From Polyangiaceae bacterium (GTDB lineage Bacteria; Myxococcota_A; Polyangia; Polyangiales; Polyangiaceae): DNA of 32,455 nucleotides. The notes beneath the pieces are model-generated. The model did not search any database. It saw only the letters and a program-made list of their open reading frames with translations, and had not been told where the DNA came from. The position numbers were made by a program, and so were the translations under genes. The stretch is taken from positions 1 through 32,455 of the forward strand of contig CANJMI010000028.1 in NCBI GenBank assembly GCA_947475525.1. Reading direction: 5' to 3'. This document shows positions 2,717 through 20,577 of this stretch, one piece after another. Position 1 is the first letter of the stretch. Each line of letters starts with the position of its first letter.

Positions 2717-5149
2717 ATGAACGCCACCTTCATCGACACCGAACCTGTAAACGTGCGCCTCCATTCGAGTGAGTTCAGCGGCTTTCACCGGCTTTCGCTC
2801 GAGGAGCGCCGCGCGTGCCTCGCGGAGGCGATAGGCCTGAGCGAGCGCGAGCTCGATATGTTGTCCTCCGACGGAGGCCTCTCGGACGAACAAGCGAATC
2901 GCATGGTCGAGAACGTCCTCGGCGTGATGAGCCTTCCGCTTGGATTGTGCGTGAATTTGCTGCTCGACGGCCGTGAATGTCTCGTGCCCATGGCGGTCGA
3001 AGAACCGAGCGTCGTCGCCGCGGCGAGCTTCGCGTCGAAGCTCCTGCGAGCCGGCGGCGGCGTGACCACCGAAGTCACCCCGCCGCACATGATTGGGCAA
3101 ATCCAGCTCCTCGATGTGCCCGACGTTGCAAGCGCCGAAGCCGCCGTGCTCGCGGCCAAGGCCGAGCTCCTCGCGGCCGCCAACGAGGGGCATCCAAGCC
3201 TCGTCGCCGCCGGTGGCGGTGCCATCGATCTCGAGGTCAAGCACCTCGCGCCACTGACCGAGGTCACGGGCGGCTTCCACGATCCGTGCGGCCCGATGAT
3301 GATCGTCCACCTCGTGGTCGACGTGCGCGATGCCATGGGAGCGAACGCCATCAACTCCATGTGCGAGCACCTAGCCCCTCGAATCTGTGAACTCTCCGGG
3401 GGCCGAGCGGGGCTGAAAATCCTCTCGAATTTGACCGATCGTCGCATGGTAATCGCGCGTGGACGCGTGCCGTTTTCAGCACTTGCGGGGCGTGGCTGCG
3501 GCAGCCCCGAGGAGCTCGCGCGGGGTATCGAGGAGGCCTCGGTATTCGCCGAGCGCGATCCCTACCGAGCGTGCACGCACAACAAGGGGATCATGAACGG
3601 CGTGGACTCCGTCATGCTCGCCTTCGGCCAGGATTGGCGCGCCGTCGAGGCGGGCGCCCATGCGTATGCGGCTCGCGACGGGCGCTACACGGCGCTCTCG
3701 CGCTGGCGCGTCGAAGGAGAGTTTCTCGTCGGGGTACTGGAGATGCCCCTCGCGGTGGGCACCGTCGGGGGTATCGCTCGCGTGCACCCAACAGTGAAAG
3801 TCGCGCGGCGCGTGGCCCGGGTGAACGGGGCCGCGGAGCTCGCTTCTATCGGCGCTGCCGTGGGGCTCGCGCAGAACTTGAGCGCGCTCCGTGCGATGGT
3901 CGCCGAGGGCATTCAGCGCGGGCACATGCGTCTTCACGCACGCAACGTCGCGGTCGAAGCCGGCGCGACCGGTGAGCGCATCCAGGAGGTCGCCGATCGA
4001 ATCGCGAGTCAACGCAACGTAAGCCTCGCCGCTGCGAAAGAAGCGCTCGCCGAGCTCGAGATCCAACGCCGCGCCGCGAGCACCATCCCGCCGATATACT
4101 CAGGCGACGTAGGTTCGATAGCTCTGCTCGAGCGATTTAGGGTCCTCCGCGACACGCACTGGCCCGAGATGGAAGAGCTGATGGGCCGGATGATGCGCGG
4201 CTCCACCCCCGCGGCCTCGACGCTCGTCGACATGTGCGACTACCACCTCACGACGGGTGGAAAACGTCTGCGCGCGCTCTTGCCCCTGCTCGTCGGCGAG
4301 GCACTCGGCGTCGACCCGAAGCGCATGGTCCCTTTCGGTGCCGCATGCGAGATGCTCCACAACGCAACGCTCGTTCACGACGACTTGCAGGACGGTGACC
4401 TGTTCCGCCGTGGTCGCATGACCGTATGGAATCGCTACGGCATCCCTCAAGCCGTGAACCTCGGCGACGCGATGTTCTACTTCGCGGTGCTGCTTACGCA
4501 ACAGCTCGATGCGCCTGCGCTCCGGCGCGAACAAGCAACGAAATTGCTCGTTTTCGAGACACTCCGGGTGATCGATGGCCAAGAGCGTGAATTCAGCCTG
4601 AAGACCAAGCCGGTCGTCGTGCTCGATGATTACTTCGCGATGGTCGAAGGAAAGACCAGTGGGCTCTTTGCACTTCCGATGGCGGGTGCCGCGACGTTGT
4701 GCGACGCCCCCGAGGAACTCTGCGCGGGGCTCGCCGAGTCTGCGCGCCACATGGGGGTCTTGTTCCAAATCCAGGATGACATGCTCGACCTTTACGGCGA
4801 GAAGGGCCGCGAACAACGCGGCAGCGACATCGCCGAAGGCAAGCGCAGCGTGCTCGTCGTCCACGCCCTCGAACACGGATCGAAGTCGGATGCGGGCTGG
4901 CTCCGCGAGGTCCTCGCTCGTGACCGTGCGGCGACGACCCAGCCGGAAATCGACCGTGCCGCGGCGCTCTTCATCGCGACGGGCTCGCGGCGTTTCGCGC
5001 TTCAGGAGATGACCGACCGCAAAGCGCGTGCACTCGCGGTGCCTGCCGTCGCTGCACGCCCCGAGCTTCAGGCGCTCGTTCGCGGCATGTGCGAGCTCTT
5101 CATGAGACCGATTCAGCCGTTGCTCGACGGCATCGAGCTCGGCCGCTGA
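2717..5149 (+). CDS. HMG-CoA reductase (class II) fused to trans-polyprenyl diphosphate synthase
   Basis: The protein has 810 residues in one uninterrupted frame. Residues ~15-430 are a class II HMG-CoA reductase that makes mevalonate. It carries the ENV catalytic Glu65, HNKGIMNG with Lys290, Asp306 in the following segment, and GHMRLHARN with His407, so the whole catalytic set is present. Residues ~470-810 are an all-helical prenyl transferase with GGKRLR, first Asp-rich motif DDLQD at 555-559 and second motif DDMLD at 687-691, both intact. The residues 4 and 5 before the first Asp motif are small (Thr, Ala). In known synthases this favours products of C20 or longer, so a GGPP-type product is inferred. 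The linker at ~435-470 is Ala/Glu-rich and helical. The mevalonate kinase, phosphomevalonate kinase and decarboxylase steps are not in the window. Normally these two enzymes are separate genes. Confidence 0.93.
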   Translation: MNATFIDTEPVNVRLHSSEFSGFHRLSLEERRACLAEAIGLSERELDMLSSDGGLSDEQANRMVENVLGVMSLPLGLCVNLLLDGRECLVPMAVEEPSVVAAASFASKLLRAGGGVTTEVTPPHMIGQIQLLDVPDVASAEAAVLAAKAELLAAANEGHPSLVAAGGGAIDLEVKHLAPLTEVTGGFHDPCGPMMIVHLVVDVRDAMGANAINSMCEHLAPRICELSGGRAGLKILSNLTDRRMVIARGRVPFSALAGRGCGSPEELARGIEEASVFAERDPYRACTHNKGIMNGVDSVMLAFGQDWRAVEAGAHAYAARDGRYTALSRWRVEGEFLVGVLEMPLAVGTVGGIARVHPTVKVARRVARVNGAAELASIGAAVGLAQNLSALRAMVAEGIQRGHMRLHARNVAVEAGATGERIQEVADRIASQRNVSLAAAKEALAELEIQRRAASTIPPIYSGDVGSIALLERFRVLRDTHWPEMEELMGRMMRGSTPAASTLVDMCDYHLTTGGKRLRALLPLLVGEALGVDPKRMVPFGAACEMLHNATLVHDDLQDGDLFRRGRMTVWNRYGIPQAVNLGDAMFYFAVLLTQQLDAPALRREQATKLLVFETLRVIDGQEREFSLKTKPVVVLDDYFAMVEGKTSGLFALPMAGAATLCDAPEELCAGLAESARHMGVLFQIQDDMLDLYGEKGREQRGSDIAEGKRSVLVVHALEHGSKSDAGWLREVLARDRAATTQPEIDRAAALFIATGSRRFALQEMTDRKARALAVPAVAARPELQALVRGMCELFMRPIQPLLDGIELGR

Positions 5150-5162
5150 GCGCCTGCGAAGT

Positions 5163-6179
5163 TCAAGGTTCCATCGCGGGCGAGTAGGCTCCGCGGGCCG
5201 CGAGCGCGTTTAGTTTCGCGCGGAGTGCGAACGCACTTTGGCCAGCCTGGACGTTGGCCGCTTTCCCCGACCAGGCTCGCAGCGCCGATTGCTGAAGCGC
5301 CCGCCCATACGAGAACGAGAGCTTCCACGGCAGGTTCTTGTGGCGCACGTTGATCGCGTTGAGGTTCGCGGTGGCTTCCGCCTCGCTCTGTCCACCCGAA
5401 AGAAACACGATGCCCGGAACTGCCGGGGGCACGCTCTGCTTCATCAGCCTCACCGTGGCGTCCGCGATGTCTTCGGTGGTGGATTGGTCTCTCGCCTTTT
5501 TTCCGGGGATCACCATGTTCGGCTTCAGCAAGATCCCTTCGAGCGCGACGCGGTGTTCGTAGAGCGCCTCAAAGACGAATGCGAGCGTGTGGCGCGAGAT
5601 CTCGTAGCAACGGTCGAGGCCGTGGTCGCCGTCCATCAGCACCTCCGGCGCGACTATCGGGACGATTCCCGCTTCTTGACAAAGGGCGGCGTAGCGGGCC
5701 AGCGCCTCCGCGTTCGCGCGCAAGCAAAGGTCGCTCGGGAGCCCCGGCGCGATGTCGATGACGGCACGCCACTTGGCGAACTCCACCCCACGCTTGGCGT
5801 AGCCGTCGAGGCGCTGACGAAGGCCGTCGAGTCCCTCGGTGATGCTCTCCCCCGGAGCGAAGGGCATAGGCTGTATGCCTTTATCGACTTTGATACCCGC
5901 GGCCACTCCTTCCTCTTGCAATAGCTCAATGAAGGTTCGGCCGTCTTTGGTGCGTTGACCGAGTGTTTCTTCACAGAATATGACGCCGCCAACATGGTCG
6001 GCCGCATCCTTCGTCGTAACGAGCAGCTCGCGGTAAGCGCGGCGATTCTCTTCGTTGTTATCGACCCCGAACATGGCGAAACGCTTGCCGATCGTGGCCG
6101 TGCTTTCGTCGGCCGCGAGCACGCCGCGGTACCCGCCGATGATGGCGTTGGCGATCTCATTCAGGGTGCGTTTGGACAT
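5163..6179 (-). CDS. class I fructose-bisphosphate aldolase
   Basis: This 338-residue protein is of the eukaryote-like class I family, which cleaves fructose-1,6-bisphosphate to DHAP and glyceraldehyde-3-phosphate through a lysine Schiff base. Seen are LAADES (Asp24), GVEFAKWRAV with Lys136, the Schiff-base motif GILLKPNMV with Lys219, and the phosphate-binding FLSGGQSE segment. Length is slightly shorter than the ~360 of animal enzymes. The ATG has GAGG four bases upstream on the coding strand. It converges with the reductase/prenyl synthase gene across only 13 bases and faces a divergent secreted-protein gene on its other side. It is a central-metabolism gene with no visible tie to its neighbours. 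Bacterial use of this class is less common than class II. Confidence 0.95.
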   Translation of the reverse strand: MSKRTLNEIANAIIGGYRGVLAADESTATIGKRFAMFGVDNNEENRRAYRELLVTTKDAADHVGGVIFCEETLGQRTKDGRTFIELLQEEGVAAGIKVDKGIQPMPFAPGESITEGLDGLRQRLDGYAKRGVEFAKWRAVIDIAPGLPSDLCLRANAEALARYAALCQEAGIVPIVAPEVLMDGDHGLDRCYEISRHTLAFVFEALYEHRVALEGILLKPNMVIPGKKARDQSTTEDIADATVRLMKQSVPPAVPGIVFLSGGQSEAEATANLNAINVRHKNLPWKLSFSYGRALQQSALRAWSGKAANVQAGQSAFALRAKLNALAARGAYSPAMEP

Positions 6180-6391
6180 GGTGCCTCGTCAGTCGTTCGT
6201 GAGACGAGCGGAACGCCGCCCCACGAGAAAACGTACACCCTCGCTCGTGAGAGCATGCGTCGATCCGAGGACCCTACGTTCGAAAGGAAGGACTTCTTGA
6301 ATGTCATGACCCATAGTCGGTAAAGTCCGCGGCGTGAGCTTCAGCGCGGGGTCGCTCTGTGCCGACGTGGCGTGAGCGAGAAGTAAGAATC

Positions 6392-7054
6392 ATGAATGCA
6401 CCAATATTTTTAATGGCTATGTCTGGGCTCGTTCTCGTGGCGCAGGTCAGCTGCACGAGCGAAGAAACGTCGAGCACGGCCGGTGCCGGCGGAGCTGCAT
6501 CGTCGAGCCAGTCCTCCACGAACTCATCGAACCAGTCCTCCACGAACTCGTCGAGCCAGTCCTCCACGAACTCGTCGAGCCAATCCTCCACGAACTCGTC
6601 GAGCCAGTCCTCCACGAACTCATCGAGCCAGTCGTCAACCACCGCGGCGGTGGCTACGGTATCGGTCACCGGAGGCGGCGTCGTTTACGTTCCGCATTGC
6701 AACCCCGTCACGAACGCGGGTTGCGAGCCGGGCTACGCTTGCGACTCGTCGATCAAATCGACGTTCATGTGCTACGAGCCGCCGAACGATGGGGCCCTGT
6801 GTGGCGCGTGCGACGTAAACGAGGGTCCGTGGTGCACAGGAGGGCTCACGTGCACCGACGACAAGGAGTGCGTGAAGTTCTGCTGTGACGATGGTGACTG
6901 CGGCACCGGGACCTGCTCGAAGGTGGACAGCGAGGGCGGGGTCCGTTTCGGCGGCGTCGACGTCGGTTTCTGCGTGAAGGACACTGGCAAGGCCGCGTGT
7001 GATGCGCCGGCGGTAGCGCCGTCCATGGGCAAGTGCATCACCGTGACACCGTGA
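6392..7054 (+). CDS. Cys-rich secreted protein or lipoprotein with SSQSSTNS repeats
   Basis: The 220-residue product starts with a hydrophobic signal (residues ~2-18) ending AQVSC. This resembles a lipobox, but position -3 is Gln, so lipid attachment is uncertain. Six 8-residue Ser/Thr/Asn/Gln repeats follow, then a region with about 18 Cys, probably disulfide-bonded. An upstream in-frame start at 6359 is possible, but the ATG at 6392 puts the hydrophobic signal at the N-terminus. The design of signal, low-complexity Ser/Thr linker and Cys-rich domain matches the lipoprotein at 27295 and is common in large myxobacterial genomes. I do not recognise a named family. A surface or envelope location is inferred, with no predicted activity. 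Confidence 0.8.
   Translation: MNAPIFLMAMSGLVLVAQVSCTSEETSSTAGAGGAASSSQSSTNSSNQSSTNSSSQSSTNSSSQSSTNSSSQSSTNSSSQSSTTAAVATVSVTGGGVVYVPHCNPVTNAGCEPGYACDSSIKSTFMCYEPPNDGALCGACDVNEGPWCTGGLTCTDDKECVKFCCDDGDCGTGTCSKVDSEGGVRFGGVDVGFCVKDTGKAACDAPAVAPSMGKCITVTP
6503..6640 (+). repeat. 24-bp tandem repeat, five full copies plus a partial
   Basis: Units of 24 bases begin at 6503, 6527, 6551, 6575 and 6599, with a partial sixth at 6623. Each encodes Ser-Ser-Gln-Ser-Ser-Thr-Asn-Ser with one or two base differences (one copy has Asn for the second Ser). The 24-base period keeps frame, so copy-number change would lengthen or shorten the linker without breaking the gene. Confidence 0.93.
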
Positions 7055-9479: not shown

Positions 9480-10883
9480 TTACATGCAGCCAGGTTTGGG
9501 TACCAGATCGCCCTCGCGGTCGAGCTCGTACGGATACTTACACTCGGGCTTAACGCGAGGTTGAGTGGTCGCCGTATCGACGTCGGTCTTGCTTCCGCGA
9601 GCCTCACGGCCGACGACGACGGGTGTGGTGTACGCGCGCGGAGGCGGCGAGCTCGAGGTCCCCGAGGGCGCAAGCGGCGGAGTCGCAACTGGCAGCTCGA
9701 CGGGAGCACTGAGTAGAACGTGTTCTACGGATGGTTCCGGCGCGGCGTCGGCCCATGGATCGCCGACGGATGGCAACGCGACGGGCGCGTTCGCCACGTG
9801 GGCCGGAGCGGCGCGGCGCAGCGCGGCATCGGCGAGGATGGCGAGGGCGAGGCCGCACGCGAGGGTCGCGGCGACAAAACGAGGCGAGCTGCTGCGGCTC
9901 CGGCGATGGCCCCCTCCGACTTCGGTCGACGAGCCCGACATGGTCGCCGCGCGCGCCTGAGCGTCCGCTTGTGCCGCTGCGTCGGGCTTTGGAGCCGCAT
10001 AGCGCGGAGGGCTTGGGCCACCCAGCAGCGAGGCGTTGGAGAAGGTGGCTTTGAGCGCTTCGCTCATGGCGGCGGCCGTAGCAAAGCGGTCCTTCGGTGA
10101 GGTTGCGAATGCGCGCGCGAAAAACGCATCGAGGTCGACCGCGAAGTCTCCTCCTTCGCTCGGAGGTCCGTAGTCCGAGTGGCAGATGGCGAGCGACAAA
10201 GCCGCGAGCGTTTCGCCTGAAAACGGGACCCGACCGACGAGCGCGCGGTAGGCGACCACCGCGAGTGACCATAGGTCCGATTGCGGCTCCGCCGTCCGGC
10301 TGCTCAGCAGCTGCTCGGGGCTCATGTACTCCGGCGTGCCCCACAGCGCCCCCGGGCTAGTGACGTCCTTTGCCTGGTTGCTCGGCAGTTGTTTCGCGAT
10401 ACCGAAATCGAGCACTTTTACGAAGAGCTCATGGCCCGAGTCGAGGACGAAGATGTTATCTGGCTTGATGTCGCGGTGAACGATGCCGAGGCCGTGCGCT
10501 TCATCGAGGACGCCGGCGAGTTGCGCGACCAGGGTCGTAAGTTCGGCGGGTTCGAGTCGCTCGCGGCGGGCGAGGAGTGCCCCCAGCGTCTCTCCGGCGA
10601 GGAGTTCCATCACGAGGTACGGGCGGCCGTCGTCGAGCTCCCCGCAGTCGAAGGTCTTGACGACGTGGGGGCTTCGAAGCTGAGCCGAAAGTGCCGCCTC
10701 TTTTCGAAACCGCCCGAGGACCGAGGGGGCCTGAGCTTCGAGGCCCGTGGCGACGAATTTTACCGCGACGTCGGTCTCCAGCTTGTCATGCCGAGCGACC
10801 CATACGCTGCCCATACCGCCGCGCCCGAGCGGACGCACCAGCGTCAGGCTCTCGCTTATGCGGCTACCGGCGCGGAAAAGCAC
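9480..10883 (-). CDS. transmembrane serine/threonine protein kinase with Cys-bearing extracytoplasmic tail
   Basis: This 467-residue kinase has a Gly loop GRGGMGSVWVA, VAVK, HRDIKPDNIF, LDFG and GTPEYMSPEQ. A basic Ser/Arg linker, a membrane helix and a ~100-residue Pro/Ala-rich region follow. The tail ends in C-x3-P-Y-x2-D-x3-D-x3-K-P-x-C, a Cys pair also known from other myxobacterial kinase tails and likely disulfide-bonded outside. The frame stays open to an ATG at 10997, but that start would overlap the endopeptidase gene. The GTG at 10883 gives a 16-residue leader of the same length and ending (LTLVR) as the first kinase, so I chose it. It heads a three-gene run with the PEGA-like protein and the propeller lipoprotein. 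Confidence 0.93.
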   Translation of the reverse strand: MLFRAGSRISESLTLVRPLGRGGMGSVWVARHDKLETDVAVKFVATGLEAQAPSVLGRFRKEAALSAQLRSPHVVKTFDCGELDDGRPYLVMELLAGETLGALLARRERLEPAELTTLVAQLAGVLDEAHGLGIVHRDIKPDNIFVLDSGHELFVKVLDFGIAKQLPSNQAKDVTSPGALWGTPEYMSPEQLLSSRTAEPQSDLWSLAVVAYRALVGRVPFSGETLAALSLAICHSDYGPPSEGGDFAVDLDAFFARAFATSPKDRFATAAAMSEALKATFSNASLLGGPSPPRYAAPKPDAAAQADAQARAATMSGSSTEVGGGHRRSRSSSPRFVAATLACGLALAILADAALRRAAPAHVANAPVALPSVGDPWADAAPEPSVEHVLLSAPVELPVATPPLAPSGTSSSPPPRAYTTPVVVGREARGSKTDVDTATTQPRVKPECKYPYELDREGDLVPKPGCM

Positions 10884-10929
10884 GAGTGGAAGATAGCAGG
10901 GTTGTCCCGTAGGAGCAGCGAAGACGCCG

Positions 10930-12219
10930 TCACCCGTTGGCAGCGTGATGCGGAGGGGGCAGGCGGCGCGGGGGAATGGCGATCCGCGGCGCGGCATGCA
11001 TCGGTCGCGTGCGTTGCACGATGACCTTTTGTGGAACGAGGTAGGTGCGGCCCGCGACGACCTTCAACCCGCGCAGGCGATTCGCTTTTTGGATGGCGAG
11101 CACCGTGGTGTTGAACTTCTTCGCGAGAACCGCCAGCGTCTCGCCTTTGTGAATGCGGTACGGAACGAGGCCTTCTTCTTCGCGCCGCAGGACCAGCCGG
11201 CGATCGGGGAGATACGGTAGCGCCCGGCGCCCAAGCTCCTCGGCGATCGGGTTGAAGAAGCGCACGTGAAGATGCGTATCGTGGCCGTGCACATGCCGAA
11301 TGAGCGCATTCGCGTTGTGGGTTCCGTATTGAAACAGGCTATCGAGCCACGCAGGGTCCTCGCCGGCCGAGAGTGCCCACGCCTTGAGCAGCTTCTGGAC
11401 CGAGAGGTTGACGAAGATGTATTCGACGTCGGTCTCGGTCACGAGCGCGCGCACGAGCTCCCAGCTTCGCGCGGCATCGAAGTTTTCGGCCGTCGCACGC
11501 TTGTACCAAGCGTTGTTCGTGCCCACGTAAAAGTAACCGAGGTCGACGTCGCGTCCTGATTGGTGGCTGCGGTGCGGGCTGAGTGGGCCGCCGCGTCGCG
11601 AGCTCAAGTGACCGACCTGAAGCGGTGGTGCCGCGGGGTGGAGCTCGTAGACTTTCGACATCGCGCGCGTGAGAAACTCGACGGTCTCCTGGGTGCCAAA
11701 GTTGGCGGAGCCATCGACGACGACCCAGTGCGGAGCAGACTGCATCGCGACGGGGTTCAAGAGGCCACCGGCGGCCGGCGTGCCGAGCGACAACGAGCCG
11801 AGCGAGGCTGCGTCCGCGGTCACTCGACGTCGAAGCTCGGCTTCGGGCAACGCCAAACGTGGGTCGGTCGATGGGGGGGCCGTTGCGTCGGCGTCGTAGG
11901 CACGGGGCGCATCCGGCTCGCCGTCGTCGATGCCACCTGTCTCGTAGGGCGCTTCGTCGCCGCCTGGGCTCGGATCTTCTTCCGTCGGTGTCGGGGCGGG
12001 CGCCGGGTCGAGCGGGGCGGCGCTTGGCACAGCCGCGATGGGCGTCGGTGTCGGGAGAGCACTTGGGGCAGGCGCGGTGATGCAGTCTCGCGTGAGCCGA
12101 GGCTCAACCGGGATCGTCGGAAGCTCGGCGGGGCCGTGCAGCTCTGCTCCATCGAGCGCTGCGCCATGTGCGGCGCAACCGAAGAGCGCGAGGGAGAACA
12201 ACGGTACGAGCCGCCGCAT
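10930..12219 (-). CDS. M74 (MepA-type) murein endopeptidase lipoprotein with LysM domain
   Basis: The 429-residue protein has an N-terminal signal MRRLVPLFSLALFGC ending in a lipobox (Cys15). A ~120-residue Pro/Glu/Asp-rich linker leads to a penicillin-insensitive murein endopeptidase domain. Zinc-site motifs are SHQSGRDVD (His219, Asp226) and HDTHLHVR (His316, His318). Residues ~340-390 form a LysM peptidoglycan-binding domain (YRIHKGETLAVLAKKFN, then an NRLRGLKVVAG stretch), and the tail is basic and Pro/His-rich. The family cleaves D-Ala-mDAP cross-links in peptidoglycan. ATGs at 12321 and 12252 are in frame, but the one at 12219 places the signal peptide at the N-terminus. Its stop is 46 bases before the kinase start. 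The role may be cell-wall remodelling or lysis of prey walls. Confidence 0.9.
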   Translation of the reverse strand: MRRLVPLFSLALFGCAAHGAALDGAELHGPAELPTIPVEPRLTRDCITAPAPSALPTPTPIAAVPSAAPLDPAPAPTPTEEDPSPGGDEAPYETGGIDDGEPDAPRAYDADATAPPSTDPRLALPEAELRRRVTADAASLGSLSLGTPAAGGLLNPVAMQSAPHWVVVDGSANFGTQETVEFLTRAMSKVYELHPAAPPLQVGHLSSRRGGPLSPHRSHQSGRDVDLGYFYVGTNNAWYKRATAENFDAARSWELVRALVTETDVEYIFVNLSVQKLLKAWALSAGEDPAWLDSLFQYGTHNANALIRHVHGHDTHLHVRFFNPIAEELGRRALPYLPDRRLVLRREEEGLVPYRIHKGETLAVLAKKFNTTVLAIQKANRLRGLKVVAGRTYLVPQKVIVQRTRPMHAAPRIAIPPRRLPPPHHAANG

Positions 12220-12789: not shown

Positions 12790-15714
12790 GTGAACGATCC
12801 GCTTCAAGCTGTGTTCGCTGCGATCCGCGAAGCTTGCGAGCCGCGGGACTGGTCACGCGGCGTGGAGCTGCAGCGCAGCGATGCCGTCGATGCACTCGTG
12901 GTCGGTGACCCCGTCGAGCTCCGTGTGCGCACGAAGGACCGAACGGTCGCCCCGACGGTGACGCTCCACCTCGCCGATTCCGAGTGGAGCTGCACCTGCG
13001 ACGGTGAGGACCCATGCGAGCATGTCGTCGCGGGGATCCTCGCGCTGCGGCAGGCGCGCAAGGAAGGGCGCGAGCTTGCGACGTCGAAGAAGGCAGGGGC
13101 CGAGATCGGTTATCGCCTGCTACGTGATGGCGATCGGATGGTCGTCTCTCGTGTCGCCGTGCGGGCGGGACAGGAGCATGCGATCGAAGGGACGCTCGGC
13201 GGGATCTTGGCGGGACGCGAGCCCGGACCGGAGCTCGAGCCGACGAAAGCCGATCTCACCATCGATCAGTTTCTCCTGCAAAATCGCGTAAGAAGTCTAC
13301 CCGCTGAGCGGTTCGCGCTCTTGCTCCCGCTTCTCGCGCAAGCCAAAGACGTAAGCCTCGACGGCGCCAAAGTCAGCGTGAGCGAGACGCCCCTCTGGCC
13401 CCACGTGATCCTCGAAGCGAATGGTCGCGGGTATCGGCTGCGCTTCGAGCGACCCAAAGGCGAAGTCGTGATCGTGGTGCCGGGGATCGCGTGCGTCGAC
13501 GGCGAACGCGTGCTGCCCGTTGGCGTGCCGGAGATCGTCGGCTCGCGGCTCGAGCGCCTGCCCTGTGAACAGCGTTTCGAAGGCGACCGGGTAGCGGAGC
13601 TCGTAACAAGGATCGTTCCCGAGTGGCGCAATCGAACCGACATCGAAGAGCGCACAACGCTCCCGTCACTCCAGGGCGAGCTTGCCGTGAGACCGCTCGT
13701 CGAGGTGACGCAGCGAGGCTCTCGGCTCCATGTCGTCGCGTCGATCGGTTACGGCGATCCGCTGCTCGCGCGGGTTGTCGGTGACGGCCTCCAGCGCGTT
13801 GCCGGCGCGAGGCTCCCGGTGATTGAGCGCAACCCCCGTGCGGAGCGGCGCGCCGCCGAGAGACTGCGCGAGGCCCTCGATTTGGTACCGGGGCGAGCAG
13901 CCGAAGTTTCAGGTCGTGAGGCCGTCGCGATGGCGGCAAAGTTACGCGCGCTCCACGGGTTCACGGTGCTCGGAGATGCCCACGACGTTCACTATCCGGC
14001 GGCGCTTTCGGTAGAGCTCAACGTCGATGCCGAGCGCTTCGATGTCGTCTTCTCGGGCGAGGCGGCCGGGGACGTGCGGCGCGTCGAGGCGTCGGCCGTT
14101 CTCGAGGCTTGGCGCGATGGCTCCGGTGTCGTGCCGCTCCTCGGCGGCGGTTGGGCCCCTTTGCCGACCGATTGGCTCGAGCGCTACGGCCACCGTTTGC
14201 GCGAACTCTTCGCCGCGCGCGATGCCTCGGGACGCGTCGCCGCTTACAGCAAGCCCGCGCTCGCTCGACTCTGTGCGGACCTCAATCATCCGGTCCCCGT
14301 CGAGCTCTCTCGCCTCGAGCCGCTCGTGCGCGACTTCGACGGCTTGCCTTGCGCGACCTTGCCTGACGACCTTCAAGCGGAGCTCCGTCCCTACCAGCGC
14401 CGCGGCGTCGATTGGCTGTGTTTTCTAAGGGAAGCCGGTCTCGGAGCGCTCCTTGCCGACGACATGGGCCTCGGCAAAACGCTGCAGACCTTGTGCGCGC
14501 TGCGAGGGCGTTCGCTCGTCGTCTGCCCGCGTAGCGTCGTGCACAATTGGGTCGACGAGCTGCGACGTTTTCGTCCGGGCCTCGCCGTCGGCGTCTACCA
14601 CGGCGTGCAGCGCTCGCTTCCCGATGCGGGTGTCGTCGTGACGACTTACGCCCTCCTGCGGCGCGACATCGACGCGCTCACGGCCATCCAATGGGATGCG
14701 GTGGTGCTCGACGAGGCGCAGGCGATAAAGAACCCGGAGAGCCTGGTCGCCGAAGCGGCGCACCGAATCAAAGCGACCTTTCGTGTCGCCTTGAGCGGAA
14801 CTCCGGTCGAGAACCGCCTCGAGGAGCTGTGGAGCTTGATGCACTTCTGCAATCCTGGCTTGCTCGGCGGGTTGCGGGCGTTCCGCGAAGACTACGAACG
14901 CCCGATCGCCGATGGCGTGCCCGACGCCGCGAAGCGTCTTCGCGAGCGAATTCGCCCGTTTTTGTTGCGCCGCAAAAAATCGGAAGTCGCGACCGACCTG
15001 CCTCCGCGGATCGAGTCCGTGTTGTCGTGCGAGCTCGAGCCCGATGAGCGCGCCGTCTACGATGCCGTGTTGCTCGCGACGCGCGCCTCGGTCGTGCGTG
15101 ACCTCGAAGCCGGGGGCAACGTGATGAAGGCGCTGGAGGCGCTACTTCGGCTGCGGCAAGCGGCCTGCGACATCACGCTCGTTCCCGGTCAGGGGGCGCG
15201 CTCCGAGCCGTCTTCGAAGGTGCAGCGGCTGATGGTCGCACTCGAAGTTGCCGCGGCGGACGGTCACAAAGCCCTGGTGTTCTCCCAATGGACGAGCATG
15301 CTCGATCGCGTTGAACGCGAACTCGATGGCGCGGGCATTCGCTTCACGCGTCTCGATGGCTCGACCCGGGATCGCGCTCAGGTCGTCGCCGAGTTTCAGA
15401 GCGAGGGCGGCCCCCCGGTGATGTTGCTCTCCCTCAAGGCAGGTGGAACGGGCTTGAACCTGACGGCGGCGGATCACGTGTTTTTGCTCGATCCTTGGTG
15501 GAATCCCGCAGCCGAGGATCAGGCGGCGGATCGCGCACATCGCATCGGGCAATCCCGCTCGGTGCTCGTCCATCGGTTGATCGCCAAGGACACCGTTGAA
15601 GAACGCATCCTTGAGCTCCAGAAGAAAAAGCGCGCACTCGCAGACGTGGCGCTCGACGATGCGGCCATGGCGGCAGCGCTCACGCGGGATGACCTGCTCG
15701 CGCTATTTGGCTGA
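12790..15714 (+). CDS. SNF2-family ATPase/helicase with N-terminal SWIM zinc finger
   Basis: This 974-residue protein starts at GTG. A SWIM zinc finger is formed by C68-x-C70, C76-x-H78. A poorly conserved middle region leads to the two-lobed SNF2 motor: motif I DDMGLGKT (Lys563), motif II DEAQ (641-644), motif [11 protein letters not shown]. The C-terminal lobe carries [28 protein letters not shown] and DRAHRIGQ. The family uses ATP to move along or remodel DNA-protein complexes; bacterial members such as RapA act on RNA polymerase, but the SWIM type is uncharacterised in most bacteria. It converges on the SDR-like gene across 11 bases. Its coding start lies 18 bases from the divergent SlyD gene, so its promoter must sit inside that gene or its own 5' region. 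Confidence 0.95.
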
Positions 15715-18330: not shown

Positions 18331-20577
18331 GTGCAAGTCAATCGCCTCAAAATCGTGCCGAGACCGTCCCTGCGCGTTCGCATGGAGACGTTGCTCGCGC
18401 TCGACAAAGACGATGAAGGCCTGATGCCGGTGCTCGAGCTGTCGTTCGAAGGCGTCGGAAGAAGCGGCCTCGACCCCAGCGCGGAGTGCGACGCGAAACG
18501 TCTGCTCGAGAGCTTCGGGGCCGTCGAGATCGCGTGTCTCGAGCACCTTGGCGTGCCCTACGGTTCGTCGGCGCAATACGTCGTCGATGTCGATGGCAGC
18601 GTGAACGGGTTCTGTGCCTTCTCGGCCTACGCGATACCCCAACTGAGGCAGCTTGGCTGGGAGGTGGACGTCGCGGAAGACTACCCGTACCGCGTCGTGG
18701 ACGGGGACGTGCCCTGGTACGTCGATGTCGCGCCGGACGAGCAGAAGCCCGACTGGTTCAATCTCGAGCTCGGAATCGCGATCGACGGACGACGCGTCAG
18801 CCTGCTGCCCGCGATGCTCGCGTTGCTCGACCGCATGCCCGACGACGGGCAGATGGCGAGCCTTGTGCGAATGGCAACTCGTTGCTTTGCGTTGCCGGTG
18901 GGCGAGGGTCACTACGTGGCGGTCCCCGCTGACCGTTTGCGCCGCATTTTAATGGTAGTTCGGGATCTGTGGGAGGGCACGGGCACGCCCCGAATGCGAC
19001 ACGGTGAGCCGGTGCTGGCCGTCGATGGATTGCGGGCGGTGGCGCTCACCGAACTGGACGCTGCGCTCGGCGAAGTCGGCGTTCCGGTGTCCCGTCGCGG
19101 CGGCGTGGAACTGCGCGAACTCGGCTGCGCGTTGAGCTCGCGCCCAGTCGAAGATTCGGTGCTCCCCCGCGGACTGCAAGTCGAGCTGCGTCCGTACCAG
19201 CGCGAGGGCGTAGCTTGGCTCCAGCACCTCGCCTCGCTCGGTGTCGGCGGCGTACTTGCCGATGACATGGGGCTCGGCAAGACGTTGCAGACCATCGCGC
19301 ACGTCTTGCTCGAGAAGGAATCCGGACGCCTCACGAGACCTGCGTTGGTGATCGCGCCGACGAGCCTCGTACCTGGCTGGGGCCGTGAGCTCGCCAAATT
19401 TGCCCCGCAACTTTCCGTGTTGTTGTTGCAAGGCGGGCGGCGCCACGAGCGTTTCGCAGAGGTGCGCGAAGCGGACGTGGTGGTGACGAGCTATCCGCTG
19501 CTCACGCGCGATATCGAGACCTTCGAGACGCAGGAGTTTCACCTGCTCGTGCTCGACGAAGCACAAGCGATAAAGAACCAACACAGCCGCGCGGCCGCAT
19601 CGGTGCGGGCGATCCATTCGAAGTACCGGGTGTGTCTCTCGGGTACGCCACTCGAGAACAACCTCGGCGAACTCTTCGCGCTGTTCGACTTTTTACTGCC
19701 GGGACTACTCGGCAGCCGGGAGCAATTCACCGTTGGTTTTCGGCAGCCGGTCGAGGCAGGTGACACGGACAAGCTCGACGTTCTGAGGCGTCGCGTGGCT
19801 CCATTTATCTTGCGCCGAATGAAGCGCGACGTTGCAAAGGAGCTGCCTCCCAAGACCGAGATCGTGAGGCCGATCGAGCTCGGTGACGATGAGCGCGAGT
19901 TCTACGAGAGCATCCGAGTCGCGGCGCACGCAGACGTTCGCGCGGCGATTCGCAAGAAGGGCATCGCCGCATCCACGATCCCGGTGCTTGCTGCACTGAT
20001 GAAGCTTCGCCAAGTGTGTTGCCATCCGAAACTCGTCAATTTGTCGGGCGCGGACGAGGTGGTGGGGGCCGCAAAGTTCGAGATGGTGACGCAGCTTTTG
20101 CGGAACCTCGTCAGCGAGGGGCGGCGCGTGCTCGTGTTCTCGCAGTTCGCGCGGATGCTCACGCTGCTCTCCGAGGCGCTCCTCGCCGAGGGGATTCGCC
20201 ACGTGACGCTGACTGGCGCCACCACAGACCGCCAGGCAAAGGTGGACGCGTTCCAGGAAGGTCGCGCGGACGTGTTCCTCATCAGCCTGAAGGCGGGTGG
20301 CACGGGTCTCACGCTGACCGCCGCGGACACGGTGATTCACTACGATCCGTGGTGGAACCCGGCCGCCCAATCGCAGGCGACGGACCGCGCTTACCGCATC
20401 GGACAGACCAAGCCCGTCTTCGTCTACAAACTTATCGTCGCGGGCAGCGTCGAAGAACGAATGCTGCGGCTGCAACAGCGTAAGCAAGCACTCGCGGATG
20501 CCATTCTCAGCACGGGCGTGACCGCCGCACCGCTCTCGGCCCAGGACGTCGAAGACCTGTTCGCGCCCCTCGATTGA
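18331..20577 (+). CDS. SNF2-family ATPase/helicase lacking the SWIM region
   Basis: This 748-residue protein starts at GTG. It has the same motor as the gene at 12790: motif I DDMGLGKT (Lys317), DEAQ at 409-412, SGTPLENN, then [28 protein letters not shown] and DRAYRIGQTKP. The N-terminus begins NRLKIVPRPSLRVRM, which in larger family members lies several hundred residues in, after the zinc-binding part. The motor is intact, but the usual N-terminal SWIM region is absent. The frame remains open upstream through the divergent gene's 5' part but shows no coding pattern there, so a longer protein is unlikely. It may be a naturally short form or a 5'-truncated copy. It is about 93 bases from the divergent helical gene's start. 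Confidence 0.92.
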   Translation: MQVNRLKIVPRPSLRVRMETLLALDKDDEGLMPVLELSFEGVGRSGLDPSAECDAKRLLESFGAVEIACLEHLGVPYGSSAQYVVDVDGSVNGFCAFSAYAIPQLRQLGWEVDVAEDYPYRVVDGDVPWYVDVAPDEQKPDWFNLELGIAIDGRRVSLLPAMLALLDRMPDDGQMASLVRMATRCFALPVGEGHYVAVPADRLRRILMVVRDLWEGTGTPRMRHGEPVLAVDGLRAVALTELDAALGEVGVPVSRRGGVELRELGCALSSRPVEDSVLPRGLQVELRPYQREGVAWLQHLASLGVGGVLADDMGLGKTLQTIAHVLLEKESGRLTRPALVIAPTSLVPGWGRELAKFAPQLSVLLLQGGRRHERFAEVREADVVVTSYPLLTRDIETFETQEFHLLVLDEAQAIKNQHSRAAASVRAIHSKYRVCLSGTPLENNLGELFALFDFLLPGLLGSREQFTVGFRQPVEAGDTDKLDVLRRRVAPFILRRMKRDVAKELPPKTEIVRPIELGDDEREFYESIRVAAHADVRAAIRKKGIAASTIPVLAALMKLRQVCCHPKLVNLSGADEVVGAAKFEMVTQLLRNLVSEGRRVLVFSQFARMLTLLSEALLAEGIRHVTLTGATTDRQAKVDAFQEGRADVFLISLKAGGTGLTLTAADTVIHYDPWWNPAAQSQATDRAYRIGQTKPVFVYKLIVAGSVEERMLRLQQRKQALADAILSTGVTAAPLSAQDVEDLFAPLD

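Follow-up and report, generated by a model that had tools for sequence, protein, structure and literature searches.

Analysis of a 32,455-nucleotide stretch of DNA (hereafter the window) from a Polyangiaceae bacterium (contig CANJMI010000028.1 of assembly GCA_947475525.1) identified a gene in which a class II 3-hydroxy-3-methylglutaryl-CoA (HMG-CoA) reductase (HMGR) is joined in one reading frame to a trans-prenyl synthase (PPS). The fused gene spans positions 2717 to 5149 of the forward strand, runs from ATG to TGA without an internal stop, and encodes a protein of 810 residues. Both enzyme families are known, and it is their covalent combination, recurring in related bacteria, that is new. 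Neither HMGR-PPS nor HMGR-SdmB nor any of the longer chains presented below is described in a paper of the open-access literature searched, which takes in few subscription papers and leaves most of them outside; this agrees with the initial annotation of the window, whose author did not recall the fusion as a characterized enzyme. That annotation was also right in reading a real fusion of a complete HMGR and a complete PPS from the single frame, as borne out by the open reading frame, Pfam, and TIGR00532, but it missed that the protein belongs to a series of fusions of a squalene/sterol operon that extends up to HMGR-PPS-squalene synthase (SQS)-SdmB. We consider it quite probable that the gene encodes a bifunctional HMGR-PPS that originated from the fusion of operon genes and was kept as a front end after the loss of sterol genes.

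The N-terminal HMGR domain comprises residues 1 to 448 (positions 2717-4060, + strand). Pfam HMG-CoA_red (PF00368) matched residues 28 to 408 (E 3.2e-102, 342.7 bits, profile positions 2-368 of 368), the class II ("degradative") NCBIfam model TIGR00532 scored 363.7 bits, above its cutoff of 259.95, and the closest PDB sequence match was 6dio from Delftia (398.5 bits, residues 18-448). The catalytic residues E65 (2909-2911), K290 (3584-3586), D306 (3632-3634), and H407 (3935-3937), which together span positions 2909 to 3937 (+ strand) and whose roles we take to be those of their counterparts in the Pseudomonas mevalonii enzyme, are invariant in all nine fused proteins aligned. A C-terminal flap follows the catalytic histidine in eight of these nine, including the window protein.

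A joint whose length varies among relatives (residues 449-474, positions 4061-4138, + strand) leads into the trans-polyprenyl diphosphate synthase domain (residues 475-810, positions 4139-5146, + strand), in which Pfam polyprenyl_synt (PF00348) matched residues 502 to 739 (E 5.1e-55, 186.8 bits). Sequence and alignment place the first aspartate-rich motif, DDLQD, at residues 555 to 559 (4379-4393, + strand) and the second, DDMLD, at residues 687 to 691 (4775-4789, + strand); these motifs and the four HMGR residues sit exactly where the initial annotation had put them. Both DDxxD motifs are kept in all nine fused proteins, with variation at the third residue of each. None of the NCBIfam prenyl synthase models reached its cutoff on the window protein, the farnesyl diphosphate (FPP) synthase model FPPsyn (NF045485) scoring 106 bits against a cutoff of 275. 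An assignment of the domain as Family 2 encapsulin cargo was rejected on the model score, without a search for an encapsulin gene: NF041169 was the best-scoring prenyl synthase model, yet it gave 181.8 bits against a cutoff of 450. By sequence, the nearest solved relatives of this half in the PDB are geranylgeranyl diphosphate (GGPP) and polyprenyl synthases. An AlphaFold2 model was built from 23 sequences (mean predicted local distance difference test score, pLDDT, 80.5; predicted template modeling score, pTM, 0.50), and Foldseek matched its two halves to 6dio_B and 6kd7 with template modeling (TM) scores of 0.81 and 0.87, respectively, both by target length. Judged by sequence, both domains look complete, being full length with their catalytic residues kept, and a bifunctional enzyme is predicted.

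The fusion is not confined to the window. Here, G000 is the window's own genome (98.9% complete), relatives are coded G### and loci L###, and the genus of the window comprises G000 to G004. The same HMGR-PPS fusion occurs in nine of the 183 genomes analyzed from the order (G000, G001, G002, G003, G133, G134, G113, G114, and G044), four of which belong to the genus (G000-G003), and additionally on the contig of a named metagenome-assembled genome, L103 (Myxococcota bacterium IP29b_bin.29). The fused frames of G001, G002, and G003 are 86%, 70%, and 81% identical to that of the window, respectively; in the fifth genome of the genus, G004, the contig ends inside HMGR and the gene is not assignable as fused or unfused. 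The HMGR of G044 (L035:3570-5798, + strand; genome 86% complete) is the one without the flap, and the joint therefore falls earlier in HMGR; it is still the sole HMGR match there. A scan of named contigs with generic HMGR peptides gave at least 80 loci, 41 of them Chloroflexota HMGRs by title, and only L103 and L105 among the loci listed matched the query beyond residue 500. The taxonomic spread of the two-domain architecture, which the initial annotation had proposed to establish, is thus given by these nine genomes and L103, with the named range as a lower bound.

Within the genus, the joint is under purifying selection. Over joint codons 440 to 485, the three comparisons among G000, G001, and G003 gave nonsynonymous distances (dN) of 0.14-0.18 and synonymous distances (dS) of 0.95-1.44, with dN/dS of about 0.1-0.2. 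Comparison of G000 with G002 gave dN 0.33, dS 1.24, and dN/dS 0.27, and that of G133 with G134 gave dN 0.45, dS 0.86, and dN/dS 0.52. The frame is open throughout these comparisons, which used six of the nine fused genes (G113, G114, and G044 were left out), and lengths differ by at most two codons. An assembly join or a frameshift at the joint had been raised in the initial annotation as a hazard to its own reading. Most of the compared genomes are draft assemblies in many contigs, and the HMGR-PPS-SQS region of G027 is spread over several frames (L036:1164-4148, - strand; an intact separate PPS lies on another contig), but an artefact that joined two genes can be virtually dismissed because the fusion recurs in nine genomes and on a further, named contig, with the joint codons under selection.

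In relatives, the fused gene stands among other genes of squalene and sterol synthesis, themselves fused in various combinations. G003 carries an isopentenyl diphosphate (IPP) isomerase gene, HMGR-PPS, an SQS gene that overlaps the end of the fusion with its first ATG, and then a frame joining squalene epoxidase to oxidosqualene cyclase (SE-OSC). The order in G133 is isomerase, HMGR-PPS, SQS-SdmB, SdmA, and SE-OSC, while HMGR-PPS-SQS of G113 runs into the contig end, and in G114 HMGR-PPS and an open SQS-SdmB frame lie at different contig ends. The longest chain was found on L103 (1101-5753, + strand), where HMGR-PPS-SQS-SdmB comprises 1551 residues from ATG and is followed by SdmA, another gene, and SE-OSC. 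For a gene lying between SdmA and SE-OSC, GGR is a tentative label assigned by eye. HMGR-SQS-SdmB is present in G176, followed by SdmA and SE-OSC, and HMGR-SdmB in G048, G181, G038, G180, G058, and G178; in Sandaracinus-type genomes, HMGR fused to an SdmB-like protein has SdmA-like and SE-OSC genes as neighbors (L039:6434-9058, - strand; L204:10201-12822, + strand). A continuation of the long G048 frame into PPS was considered and ruled out, since the frame continues into an SdmB-like reductase. The SE-OSC fused frame was found in G003, G133, G048, G181, L103, and others. In G044, an SQS fused to squalene-hopene cyclase (1024 residues, L035:5798-8869, + strand) lies directly downstream of HMGR-PPS. 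Altogether, a triterpene cyclase is present in five of the nine fused genomes (G003, G133, G113, G114, and G044), and the same five carry an operon-type SQS, which adjoins the fused gene or forms part of it except in G114, where it sits at the end of a contig.

Elsewhere in the phylum the pair also has unfused counterparts, with the HMGR stop and the PPS start 7 nt apart in G412 and 23 nt apart in G510. Stand-alone PPS proteins of the same lineage, found in other parts of the phylum, are up to 59% identical and are encoded by separate genes; the one of G412 lies directly behind HMGR. As a separate observation, a frame of 1203 residues at L211:7175-10783 (+ strand) combines an N-terminal squalene epoxidase, about 440 residues without assignment, and a C-terminal divergent SQS.

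HMGRs of this lineage (E <= 1e-135) were found in 24 of the 317 genomes of the class, L103 being additional. Nine of the 24 are fused to PPS and seven to SdmB, alone or together with SQS (G048, G181, G038, G180, G058, G178, and G176). Three are ambiguous, G053 lying at the end of its contig and the partner being damaged or degenerate in G177 and G179; G027 is distributed over several frames, and four have no C-terminal partner (G510, G518, G519, and G521). In a 36-row tree of HMGR, all fused rows, with that of the window among them, fall in a single 23-row clade (support 100/98). Unfused G510 and the rows cut off by contig ends belong to this clade as well, and unfused G521, G347, G518, and G519 lie outside. 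The HMGR-SdmB rows group with the four-domain, HMGR-SQS-SdmB, and ambiguous rows and with G044 (95/95). By parsimony, scored on 32 of the 36 rows (G027b, G053, G177, and G179 were left out), having any C-terminal fusion takes two changes, read as one gain and a loss at G510, whose placement is weak (80/30), and a single clade of the other 22 rows without G510 was not rejected (p 0.166). A one-clade test of the SdmB-fused rows including G053, G177, and G179, without G044, was likewise not rejected (p 0.214); the same clade with G044 included is already present in the tree, and a version leaving out G053, G177, and G179 was rejected. Coverage kept G412 (35%) out of the HMGR tree and G027 (60%) out of the SQS tree. 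The fusions cannot be dated from the PPS, SQS, and SdmB trees, whose resolution is too low; that of SQS also contains a very long row, G053. Most simply, fusion would have occurred once or a few times in a tight operon, and extension, splitting, and internal deletion would have come later.

The remainder of the isoprenoid pathway in G000 was also considered. A type 2 IPP isomerase gene (positions 1612-2697, + strand; TIGR02151 345 bits against a cutoff of 281.3) ends 19 nt upstream of the fusion, adjacent as the initial annotation had it, and the two genes are probably in the same operon. The isomerase is directly upstream and co-directional in seven of the nine fused genomes (G000, G001, G002, G003, G133, G113, and G114), was not seen in the examined stretches around the fused gene of G134 and G044, and adjoins HMGR-SdmB in G048 and G181. 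The intermediate kinases and the decarboxylase, expected elsewhere in the initial annotation, lie together on contig C7 of G000 as separate genes for mevalonate kinase, diphosphomevalonate decarboxylase, and a phosphomevalonate kinase-like protein (76.1 bits, under the cutoff of 165.7). The one HMGR match in all of G000 is the fused gene, and the fused protein is the only HMGR match in eight genomes (G000, G001, G002, G003, G133, G134, G176, and G044; G002 is 67% and G044 86% complete). On account of this sole match, the reductase half is probably essential in those eight unless an alternative methylerythritol phosphate (MEP) pathway exists.

G000 has three PPSs: the fused one, a second on contig C23, where menA and a gene for a menaquinone methyltransferase lie nearby, and a third on contig C11 among carotenoid genes, where it adjoins lycopene cyclase, crtI, and phytoene synthase-like genes. 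Since the other two lie beside menaquinone and carotenoid genes, general FPP supply would be left to the fused PPS. No operon-type SQS was found in G000, whose single SQS_PSY match is the phytoene synthase-like gene on C11, and no SQHop_cyclase match that would indicate a triterpene cyclase; the window protein therefore looks like a retained front end.

We propose that the N-terminal class II HMGR would make mevalonate, that mevalonate kinase, the phosphomevalonate kinase-like protein, the decarboxylase, and the adjacent isomerase would convert it to IPP and dimethylallyl diphosphate (DMAPP), and that the C-terminal PPS would condense these to a prenyl diphosphate of short chain length, FPP being the most likely product and GGPP perhaps an additional one. 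The next partner in relatives is SQS, which argues for FPP. The fusion would have arisen when a stop was lost between adjacent, tightly packed genes of an operon with the order HMGR, PPS, SQS, SdmB. The same process in relatives would have led to chains of three or four enzymes, and other combinations probably came about by internal deletions or splits. The lineage of the window apparently lost its sterol genes and may have kept the fused front end because it holds the sole HMGR. A benefit would be that the committing and the collecting enzyme are made in equal amounts and kept in one place, and not that an intermediate is tunnelled between them; channelling within the chain is unlikely because mevalonate must pass the kinases, the decarboxylase, and the isomerase before PPS use. 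The sequence, its frame, the conserved residues, the selection on the joint, the neighbors, and the architectures of relatives are direct observations; in this account, we infer both activities, the product length, the order of events, loss of the sterol genes as opposed to original absence, and the physiological benefit.

Several observations weigh against this account. The HMGR and PPS activities of the window protein are predicted ones, and FPP (C15) as the product is suggested by the SQS partners only. By the chain-length rule as we assume it to apply, A550 and T551 at positions -5 and -4 before the first aspartate motif, without the bulky residues of classical FPP synthases, would fit a product of C20 or longer. 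In the AlphaFold2 model, confidence is poor at residues 1-27 and 51-76, and the low pTM means that the mutual placement of the HMGR and PPS domains is not confident. Four of the nine fused genomes (G000, G001, G002, and G134) gave no match to an operon-type SQS or a cyclase, and the sterol link there consequently rests on kinship. Labels of the downstream partners fall below curated cutoffs: SQS is named from TIGR01559 (107-147 bits against 286.75) and also from Pfam SQS_PSY, and SdmB from NF052578, the best model (294-305 bits against 600), with HpnA as the second (220-240 bits against 367.65). Finally, fusion to PPS in particular needs four changes on the HMGR tree by parsimony, and the PPS tree, weakly resolved with five of 19 branches well supported and bootstrap not settled, does not unite the fused PPS domains, G113/G114 and G044 standing apart and unfused rows being mixed in. 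The fusions may therefore have occurred independently.

Loss of the stop between operon neighbors might also have been neutral, with both domains unchanged and no benefit from joining, a reading to which we give a little less than an even chance. It would accord with an unfused gene order that equals the domain order at gaps of 7 and 23 nt, with the differences among relatives in which enzymes are fused, and with the separate genes of G510, nested, weakly, among fused rows. However, the genus has retained the join while synonymous distances reached about 1 or more, several families share it, and there are also longer chains; this would be much retention for no effect, though it is not proof. 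At the other extreme, HMGR-PPS and the isomerase could act as a flux device in one complex with real substrate tunnelling, as the initial annotation had suggested in part. HMGR and PPS domain types are both dimers in solved relatives, and a fused chain of the two could form a larger assembly, with the isomerase directly upstream and co-directional in seven of nine fused genomes. Yet the product of HMGR is not the substrate of PPS, the kinases and the decarboxylase are encoded by separate genes on another contig, and the single-chain model places the domains without confidence (pTM 0.50), all of which makes such a device improbable in our view.

A different question is whether the PPS half still makes FPP. 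A repurposed PPS would yield GGPP or longer products and serve carotenoids, quinones, or cell-wall lipid carriers; A550/T551, the lack of an operon-type SQS and of a cyclase among the matches in G000, and the naming of several of the nearest solved PPSs as GGPP synthases would all be explained. This we regard as rather unlikely, as orthologous domains adjoin or are fused to SQS, which requires FPP, near SE-OSC or squalene-hopene cyclase, and G000 has other PPS genes beside its menaquinone and carotenoid genes. The bifunctional enzyme kept as a front end thus stays our preferred explanation. An extension of it is held more tentatively, at somewhat under an even chance: the window protein would be the retained stump of a sterol-pathway multi-enzyme, the fullest form of which, HMGR-PPS-SQS-SdmB, would dedicate HMGR to sterols and, by trimming, would have given HMGR-SQS-SdmB and the HMGR-SdmB of Sandaracinus-type sterol producers. 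A single polypeptide of this four-domain kind would link commitment to the mevalonate pathway with prenyl building, the formation of squalene, and the C-4 demethylation of sterols, and it is plausible as the ancestor of HMGR-SdmB. A second HMGR is present in the five Sandaracinus-type genomes searched and in G113 and G114, and the fused copy there can therefore be dedicated to sterols. Sandaracinus amylolyticus DSM 53668 makes lanosterol and zymosterol (PMC4919349).

Known systems resemble the window protein in part. MvaE of Enterococcus faecalis, an acetoacetyl-CoA thiolase fused to HMGR (PMC13001223), likewise has HMGR as part of a natural bifunctional enzyme of the mevalonate pathway, but its thiolase partner acts before HMGR, whereas the PPS of the window protein acts well after. 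IspDF of the MEP pathway (PMC13001223) joins two non-consecutive isoprenoid steps, as here, in another pathway and with other enzymes. In IspH-UbiA, a precursor-making enzyme is joined to a prenyl-using one (PMC4746011); this and IspH-RPS1, both "Rosetta stone" fusions, differ in belonging to the MEP pathway and in having a membrane prenyltransferase or a ribosomal partner. The fused squalene monooxygenase/oxidosqualene cyclase of sterol-making bacteria has already been published (PMC10070321) and shares with the present series the fusion of neighboring sterol-pathway genes, although it covers later steps and is without HMGR. The CYP51-ferredoxin fusion of Methylococcus joins a sterol-pathway enzyme to a partner as well (PMC13277303), but that partner is a redox protein and the enzymes are unrelated.

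Chains in which HMGR is joined to PPS, SQS, and what is likely a sterol demethylase protein are natural templates for making terpenoids with a single polypeptide. Sterol synthesis is classically controlled at HMGR, and HMGR-SdmB in the genome of a putative cultured sterol producer provides a genetic handle on the control of bacterial sterol synthesis. Moreover, the graded unfused, two-, three-, and four-enzyme forms make the operon origin of multifunctional enzymes directly testable.

Around the isomerase and the fused gene, the window encodes a Ser/Thr protein kinase (positions 252-1526, + strand; Pfam) upstream of the isomerase, an arrangement kept in part of the group (G000, G001, G003, and G133). 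On the other side, a convergent class I fructose-bisphosphate aldolase gene (positions 5163-6179, - strand; NF033379 477.1 bits) occupies the place of the SQS gene of G003, and the same neighbor is found in G001. A second Ser/Thr kinase at 9480-10997 is 48% identical over 270 residues to the kinase at 252-1526. Elsewhere in the window, positions 6359-7054 encode a protein that looks secreted and carries, close to its start, a short Ser/Thr/Asn/Gln repeat in tandem, and two SNF2-type helicases lie near each other at 12790-15714 and 18331-20577.

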